Made by a program: the position numbers and the translations under genes | Shown here: one piece after another, positions 1 through 393 of the stretch | Layout: each line of letters opens with the position of its first letter | How positions within the stretch are numbered: the stretch's first letter is position 1 | Source of the DNA: a virus | Length of the DNA: 22,476 nucleotides | Virus record (IMG/VR): IMGVR_UViG_3300042463_000176 | Location: 1-22,476 of that record | Direction: 5' to 3' (one strand) | Notes under the pieces: model-generated | The model's input: the letters and a program-made list of their open reading frames with translations, nothing else | The model's database searches: none | What the model was told of the DNA's origin: nothing

Positions 1-12
1 ATTTCATTTTTT

Positions 13-56
13 AAAAATAAAAAAGCCAGTCTGCGTCGGAGTGCAAAACTGGCTTT
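13..56 (-). terminator. Rho-independent terminator closing the left operon and candidate small RNA
   Basis: A perfect 9-bp stem (22-30 with 48-56) is followed on the minus strand by TTT-A-TTTTT directly after the stem's own T-run. Plus-strand transcripts would not meet a U-tract, so the terminator faces the minus strand. It lies 71 bases beyond the stop codon of the last left-operon gene and also forms the 3' half of the candidate small RNA. Confidence 0.8.
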
Positions 57-107
57 GGTTATTTAACCTATTAAATTACCCAAGAACTCCGACCCTCTTG
101 GTTAATT
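13..107 (-). ncRNA. Candidate small RNA with two hairpins and complementary (kissing) loops
   Basis: Read on the minus strand. A first hairpin pairs 107-96 with 85-74 (12 positions, 11 paired, one G/A mismatch) around a 10-nt loop, GGGTCGGAGT. A linker (73-57) can form a 4-bp mini-hairpin, GGTT-AAAT-AACC. A second hairpin pairs 56-48 with 30-22 (AAAGCCAGT/ACTGGCTTT); inside it, TGC/GCA (45-43 with 34-32) closes an apical loop of exactly 8 nt, ACTCCGAC (42-35). That loop is the perfect reverse complement of GTCGGAGT (93-86) in the first loop, and the complementarity stops at the loop edges. The second hairpin ends in a U-rich tract. A consensus promoter ends at 113, which would place the transcript start near 107, the base of the first hairpin. 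No ORF occupies the stretch. I match it to no known RNA family. Structure and promoter are seen; expression and function are inferred. Confidence 0.62.
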
Positions 108-112
108 ATATT

Positions 113-143
113 CAAATATAAAAAAACTAAACCGATTTACAAA
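113..143 (-). promoter_or_regulatory. Consensus Bacteroidota promoter, TTTG-N19-TATATTTG
   Basis: On the minus strand TTTG (143-140) is followed by 19 bases and then TATATTTG (120-113). This matches the Bacteroidota vegetative consensus (TTTG about 19-21 nt before TAnnTTTG) at every defined position. It overlaps the last five codons of the upstream small gene and points at the hairpin pair starting at 107, with no ORF in between. The likely product is therefore a small RNA and not an mRNA of a gene in this window. Confidence 0.7.
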
Positions 144-393
144 GTCTTTTAGAAAAATATCCTGAATATATTGGATGCTCTGATTCAAATAACCTAGCAT
201 AGTCCGAAGTAAATGAATTATTAACTTTAAATCTATCATTCCCTTCGACCATTGTATGCCATCTAATGACTTCAAATATCTGCTTTGCTCCAAGTCTAAT
301 GTATCCTCGATTAATTAGTTGGAATGCTAAACGTTTAAACTCCTGGTATATTTGGGGATTGTCTTGATGATATTTTTTGAAGCTTGTTTTCAT
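127..393 (-). CDS. Small conserved phage protein of unknown function (88 aa)
   Basis: The protein begins MKTSFKKYHQDNPQIYQEF and contains IRWHTMVEGNDRFKVNN and YARLFESEHPIYSGYFSKR. I recognise this pattern (FKKYH..NP..Y..F, IRW.T, FK.NN, YAR.F...P.Y.G.F.KR) as a small protein common near replication and recombination genes of tailed phages, but I know no proven function for it. There is no signal peptide or membrane segment; it is basic and mostly helical, and nucleic-acid association is only a guess. The ATG follows TTAAACCAA directly, a leader seen before other starts in this operon. Its first 59 bases overlap the end of the 51-aa ORF upstream. It is the last gene before the terminator, and the promoter for the candidate small RNA overlaps its end. 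Confidence 0.8.
   Translation of the reverse strand: MKTSFKKYHQDNPQIYQEFKRLAFQLINRGYIRLGAKQIFEVIRWHTMVEGNDRFKVNNSFTSDYARLFESEHPIYSGYFSKRLCKSV

Follow-up and report, generated by a model that had tools for sequence, protein, structure and literature searches.

What kind of RNA, if any, is encoded where two hairpin loops near the end of a viral contig match each other perfectly over 8 nt, and what might such an RNA do? The window (the entire 22,476-nt stretch of DNA analyzed) represents a 22.5-kb viral contig with nearly all of its genes on the minus strand, and the locus lies at one end of it. A preliminary description of this sequence had proposed a free-standing small RNA with its own promoter and terminator, folded or dimerized through a loop–loop kiss. 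Here we compare the element with homologues in other viral contigs, place it in its genomic context and weigh its possible roles.

A compact RNA unit with two complementary loops

The RNA unit spans positions about 108–19 of the minus strand. It is ∼90 nt long and comprises three hairpins, with a promoter and an intrinsic terminator of its own. Promoters of Flavobacterium have the consensus TTTG/TAnnTTTG (PMC2483708, PMC6847099), and the candidate promoter at 143–113, TTTG-N19-TATATTTG, agrees with this Flavobacterium/Bacteroidota pattern; it consists of a –33 element TTTG (143–140), a 19-nt spacer and the –7 element TATATTTG (120–113). The G of TAnnTTTG is positioned at –5 in such promoters (PMC6847099), so transcription is predicted to start at ∼108. 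This is the base of the 5′ hairpin, where the preliminary description had placed the start.

The 5′ hairpin (107–74) has 11–12 bp with one mismatch and a loop, GGGUCGGAGU, that contains the first kissing strand, GUCGGAGU (DNA GTCGGAGT, 93–86). The linker includes a weak mini-hairpin, GGUU-AAAU-AACC (68–57), and is followed by the terminator hairpin, AAAGCCAGU...ACUGGCUUU (about 56–22). The loop of this hairpin is the second kissing strand, ACUCCGAC (DNA ACTCCGAC, 42–35), with a 3-bp collar, UGC/GCA, below it. A U-tract (24–19) forms the RNA end. Both large hairpins are seen in the predicted fold and in covariation, the mini-hairpin in the folding of linkers of homologues, and the kissing strands in the sequence and its homologues. 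The 8-nt match is perfect and lies exactly where it was first reported. The minimum free energy (MFE) of the fold is –28.9 kcal/mol (z = –3.8), and none of 200 shuffled sequences folded as well. The MFE structure adds one G–U pair to hairpin 1, so the loop can be counted as 8–10 nt and the kissing helix as 7–8 bp.

Two genes flank the unit. Upstream and outside it, a gene at 393–127 (minus strand) encodes an 88-aa protein of unknown function (phrog_13625), which served as the anchor for finding relatives. Relatives of this protein occur in Mycobacterium, Prochlorococcus, Pelagibacter and Polaribacter phages, that is, in phages of very different hosts. Downstream, the sequence and its relatives place the next gene start at 7–1, where the contig end cuts the gene. 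The terminal ATGAAAT fits an MKYYLHDSNS-type replication initiator, as found in relatives.

Evolution has kept the loop–loop pairing

Homologues were collected through the 88-aa neighbor gene, a terminator-loop pattern and the downstream initiator gene. A covariance model (R1), built from 15 sequences with secondary structure only and without the loop pairing, found the RNA in >100 viral contigs. The terminator-loop pattern and the 15 sequences of R1 were picked after the loops had been seen, the pattern leaving the varying loop positions free; the downstream-initiator set of loci was found without use of the RNA. We refer to the RNA of the window and its homologues as type A.

Among 65 distinct type A sequences from viral contigs, loop–loop pairs 1–7 were Watson–Crick in every case, and an eighth pair was formed in 37. 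At pairs 3, 4 and 5, both sides had changed in 27, 12 and 10 sequences, respectively, and one-sided changes were absent. Six loop codes were seen (GUAGGAG, GUGGUAG, GUGAGAG, GUCGGAG, GUCGUAG and GUCAGAG), with at least seven code changes on a tree built from the rest of the RNA. Overall, 95.5% of cells were paired, versus 32–48% when the partner was slid by 1–3 columns and 82.5% upon shuffling; 0 of 500 shuffles reached the observed value. These are raw pair counts, uncorrected for kinship and judged against shuffling and sliding, together with a parsimony count of code changes. They bear out the earlier suggestion that the loop match exceeds chance. The homologues were also searched for loops that change and lose their match, the outcome on which the preliminary description had staked its proposal; complementarity was kept. 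We conclude from the comparison that the loop–loop helix is under strong selection, with its exact complementarity kept by evolution.

The stems show the same kind of constraint. In the type A alignment, two-sided changes occurred in 10 of the 11 pairs of the 5′ hairpin, where 98.2% of cells were paired. For the terminator, the corresponding values were 91.6% (lower stem) and 100% (collar), again with compensatory changes. The linker, 16–20 nt in length, folds into a mini-hairpin of 3–5 bp in 63 of 65 sequences. Comparative evidence thus makes the RNA fold near certain. Because both stems, including the 3-bp collar, covary together with the loops, the loop helix and the stems can coexist, as had been supposed from the single sequence. 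For the same reason no antiterminator fold is evident: no mutually exclusive alternative was seen in the fold or in the type A covariation. Hence, judged by its sequence, the RNA does not look like a mutually exclusive switch.

We scanned four phage genomes for the whole design (a loop-complementary hairpin pair, a terminator and an adjacent start codon) and, reading the raw matches by eye, recovered these RNAs only. When viral contigs were scanned for exact 14-mers, the matches were mostly due to chance. Some RNAs agree at all 88 nt although up to 68% of the four-fold sites in the neighbor gene differ. Identical 88-nt RNAs beside diverged genes, and before different downstream genes, indicate that the RNA is a module of its own or is frequently transferred. 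As first surmised, it belongs to no known family represented in Rfam: at gathering thresholds there was no match for the window or for six relatives, type B (see below) included; permissive settings applied to window positions 1–300 gave two weak matches only, far below threshold; and the model of the c4 antisense RNA (RF01695) did not match.

An unrelated scaffold of the same design at the same site

A second RNA, type B, unrelated in sequence to type A, occupies this genomic site in many close relatives. It has a 6-bp hairpin with the loop CUCACUAC-AUUAUA and a terminator hairpin with the loop AAGUAGUGAG. The order of the strands is opposite to that of type A, the pyrimidine strand coming first; the design is otherwise the same. 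The loops of all 20 distinct type B RNAs showed 8-nt complementarity without a mismatch. Exchanges occurred at positions 1–6, giving six codes and bringing the loop codes seen to twelve, six in each of the two scaffolds. We took these pairs from the sequences themselves, since the automatically generated alignment of type B (A7) was out of register in the 3′ loop, so that its pair counts understate the helix. In most members the 3′ hairpin of type B (L131, L126, L172 and others) holds a short open frame, for example MPCIEIGSSEPMDL or MPSFNEPEVRSWGFTWRLF. This frame was considered and set aside: the encoded peptide is not conserved across B subgroups, and in one member the ATG is missing.

Every locus examined beside the 88-aa gene carried one of the two RNAs (A in 29 and B in 31 of 60). 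The tree of the 88-aa gene requires no fewer than 16 switches between A and B, a figure close to the mean of 20.4 obtained by shuffling. A full TAnnTTTG element was found upstream of 38 of 65 type A and 19 of 25 type B elements, as compared with 27 of 2000 random stretches. Each phage record searched had one A or one B, except a 59-kb record with two A copies. In this record (G008, L277–L279; 59277 bases), the two type A RNAs lie ∼31 kb apart, and long-range repeated stretches are seen at about 29–32 kb; it may represent two related phages joined in assembly. What the two scaffolds have in common is loop pairing and position, not a binding sequence. We infer that both RNAs serve one function, and that this function rests on the layout they have in common, namely promoter, 5′ hairpin, terminator and complementary loops.

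The RNA directly precedes replication-initiator operons

Absent from the preliminary description was the downstream context. The next ATG (7–5, minus strand) probably opens a replication-initiator operon. In 67 of 68 type A matches, a start codon, as a rule that of such an operon, follows the end of the terminator stem by 13–20 nt (median 17). The element held up as a real RNA unit, with a Flavobacterium-consensus promoter and a U-tract, but not simply as a free-standing one, as it also has the place of a 5′ leader. Type A spacing is constant across many different first genes; for type B, the distance is 12–25 nt. The first genes encode replication initiators or replisome organizers of several N-terminal families (Lin1244-like PF14297, HTH_36, phrog_2562, phrog_6251 and others). 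In some loci the initiator is separated from the RNA by an inserted small ORF or HNH gene, which lies after the RNA; at L053/L124 and L166, a small HNH endonuclease gene lies directly 3′ of the RNA at the usual spacing. By our own count, only two of 80 initiator loci (L343 and L360) lack both A and B upstream; the other 78 have one of them. At L122, L125, L129, L173 and their relatives, the N-terminal domains of the initiators are exchanged (Lin1244-like, HTH_36, DnaA-like replisome organizer) and the C-terminal parts are similar, suggesting domain swapping of origin recognition.

The phage family is uncultured and probably infects Bacteroidota, given the promoter type and the distant relatives of the initiator in Flavobacterium and Porphyromonas phages. 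Searches of genome_contigs returned neither a relative of the 88-aa protein nor a match to the type A pattern. The capsid protein had no match among phage isolates, type B had none in isolate phages, and the RNA had none among plasmids; weak matches of the RNA in isolate phages (best E 0.4) look like chance. A related initiator is found in three isolates (Flavobacterium phage 1/32, Porphyromonas phage 005b and EF62phi), which were considered as carriers and rejected. There, the initiator starts 0 to ∼60 nt after the previous gene, a gap into which no such RNA fits.

Possible roles of the RNA

Comparative sequence analysis establishes the fold, the loop–loop helix, the fixed position and the fact that a second scaffold built alike can take the RNA's place. 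As to function, we lean somewhat towards a modular leader RNA of the replication-initiator operon, acting as an attenuator or a self-pairing feedback RNA. The argument is drawn mainly from layout. In the window and its homologues, a predicted intrinsic terminator occupies the leader position of the replication-initiator gene. Because nearly all genes lie on one strand and there is no space for a promoter after the terminator, the initiator start codon should be present only on transcripts that read through. Since these transcripts must pass the terminator, the RNA would limit initiator expression.

In such a leader, transcription from the RNA's own promoter would produce a ∼90-nt, three-hairpin RNA. 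Most transcripts would end at the intrinsic terminator, which lies immediately ahead of the initiator operon's ATG, and few would continue. The loops of the 5′ and terminator hairpins would pair over 7–8 bp, either intramolecularly or intermolecularly, and this helix would set how frequently the terminator is passed. Alternatively, the helix would stabilize the terminated RNA, which would exert feedback on leaders still being transcribed. Identical RNAs precede different genes, so there is no sign that the RNA senses or binds the downstream gene product. On the other side, the constant spacing could come from compact genomes and the need for an unstructured start region. The –20 to +20 region around start codons tends to be unpaired in Flavobacterium (PMC6847099), and a terminator stem ending ∼17 nt upstream of the start codon fits this tendency.

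A serious though less likely alternative is a free-standing RNA that acts in trans, a compact and stable ∼90-nt molecule working on host or phage RNA or protein, its site before the initiator operon being incidental to the location of an early promoter and terminator. The RNA does have its own promoter and terminator, it is strongly conserved as a whole and recombines freely with different downstream genes, and its stems and loop helix can coexist. Yet the type A start codon follows at 13–20 nt whatever the gene, with no space for a second promoter, and the only things common to the two unrelated scaffolds are loop pairing and position rather than a sequence that could bind a target. The preliminary description had also suggested regulation of phage mRNAs, but an informal scan of four phage genomes revealed no obvious excess of loop targets elsewhere, which argues against direct action of the loops on them.

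Within the leader model, the loops might instead pair in trans, so that each 5′ loop meets a terminator loop on a different molecule. A nascent leader would thereby sense the amount of terminated RNA, hence of phage genomes, and adjust initiator expression; cross-talk between phages would then depend on the loop code. We consider this form unlikely, although several observations suit it. By rough geometry, the linker of 16–20 nt, usually with its mini-hairpin, is short for a coaxial stem–kiss–stem rod in one molecule and easy to accommodate in a two-fold dimer. The geometry is an estimate, however, and a bent complex or an opened mini-hairpin would permit pairing within one molecule. Calculated duplex energies for matching 7-mer codes are –8.5 to –10.7 kcal/mol, and those for mismatched codes are mostly weaker than –5.5 kcal/mol, with one exception at –8.5; by this calculation, the loop codes would be mostly orthogonal. 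In addition, the site before replication initiators is one where plasmids use kissing RNAs for copy control. An extension of the same idea, which we regard as unlikelier still, is a self-titrating sensor of gene dosage. Here terminated copies would bind leaders still being transcribed from the initiator operon, and the loop code would determine which phages interfere with one another, so that lineages keep swapping codes and scaffolds.

It is very improbable that the RNA is a structured primer transcript similar to ColE1 RNA II, one that would prime replication at the phage origin or mark this site. Its place directly before initiator genes would suit a primer, but it ends in a strong predicted terminator, it is conserved while initiator domains change, and the cumulative GC skew of a relative has no turn at the RNA and no origin signal. 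Finally, an ordinary terminator with chance loop complementarity, conceivable for a single sequence noticed post hoc (such matches occur occasionally), is refuted by retention of the pairing in 65 of 65 and 20 of 20 homologues with compensatory changes, a level that the controls fail to reach.

Comparison with known systems

To our knowledge, kissing-loop leader RNAs normally need two transcripts or a ligand-binding core. In the cobalamin riboswitch, a loop of the aptamer kisses the loop of a regulatory hairpin in the 5′ leader. The phage RNA likewise has a loop–loop helix that joins an upstream hairpin to a regulatory hairpin in a 5′ leader, but no ligand-binding core is visible, the upstream element being a plain hairpin. 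The pRNA of phage phi29 is a small phage RNA with two complementary hairpin loops able to pair between molecules, and forms part of the packaging motor. The RNA studied here differs in its location before replication initiators, its loop helix of 7–8 bp and its being part of a leader. Nor does its gene lie next to packaging genes, as would be expected of a phi29-like pRNA: in the relative G001, a terminase-like gene at 18.9 kb is well separated from the RNA at 10.5 kb. This distance lends no support to the packaging signal that was earlier listed among possible roles.

GOLLD and ROOL are RNAs of phages and prophages and, like OLE, are held together by kissing loops, partly between molecules (PMC12286853). 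These are large, ornate RNAs (GOLLD often >800 nt, OLE ∼600 nt), whereas the present one measures ∼90 nt and is tied to one operon. The CI immunity RNA of satellite phage P4 is a phage leader RNA of a replication operon, where self-complementarity to its own transcript stops transcription early (PMC4825925). However, P4 CI arises by processing of a longer transcript, and its partners are the separate sites seqA and seqC, whereas here the pairing is loop to loop in one ∼90-nt unit with its own intrinsic terminator.

The attenuator of pT181 repC, which serves plasmid copy-number control by antisense RNA (PMC4878617), offers a further parallel. Both lie in leader position before a replication-initiator gene, with a 5′ hairpin, an intrinsic terminator ahead of the gene and RNA–RNA recognition that starts, or would start, with loop–loop kissing. 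But pT181 depends on an antiterminator fold and on an antisense RNA made separately, whereas the phage RNA has both loops in one transcript, one of them in the terminator, with no antiterminator evident. Among open-licence PMC papers, we found no system with both kissing partners in one small leader and one of them in the terminator loop. What sets this RNA apart is that a single short molecule holds both partners, and that two unrelated scaffolds of the same design replace each other at one site. The mostly orthogonal loop codes would also make a ready set useful in RNA design. The exact loop complementarity, maintained in both of the unrelated versions that these phages keep swapping, suggests a previously undescribed switch or feedback device made of RNA that serves phage replication; if the RNA does control the initiator operon, it would be a new and very small form of RNA-based replication control in phages.
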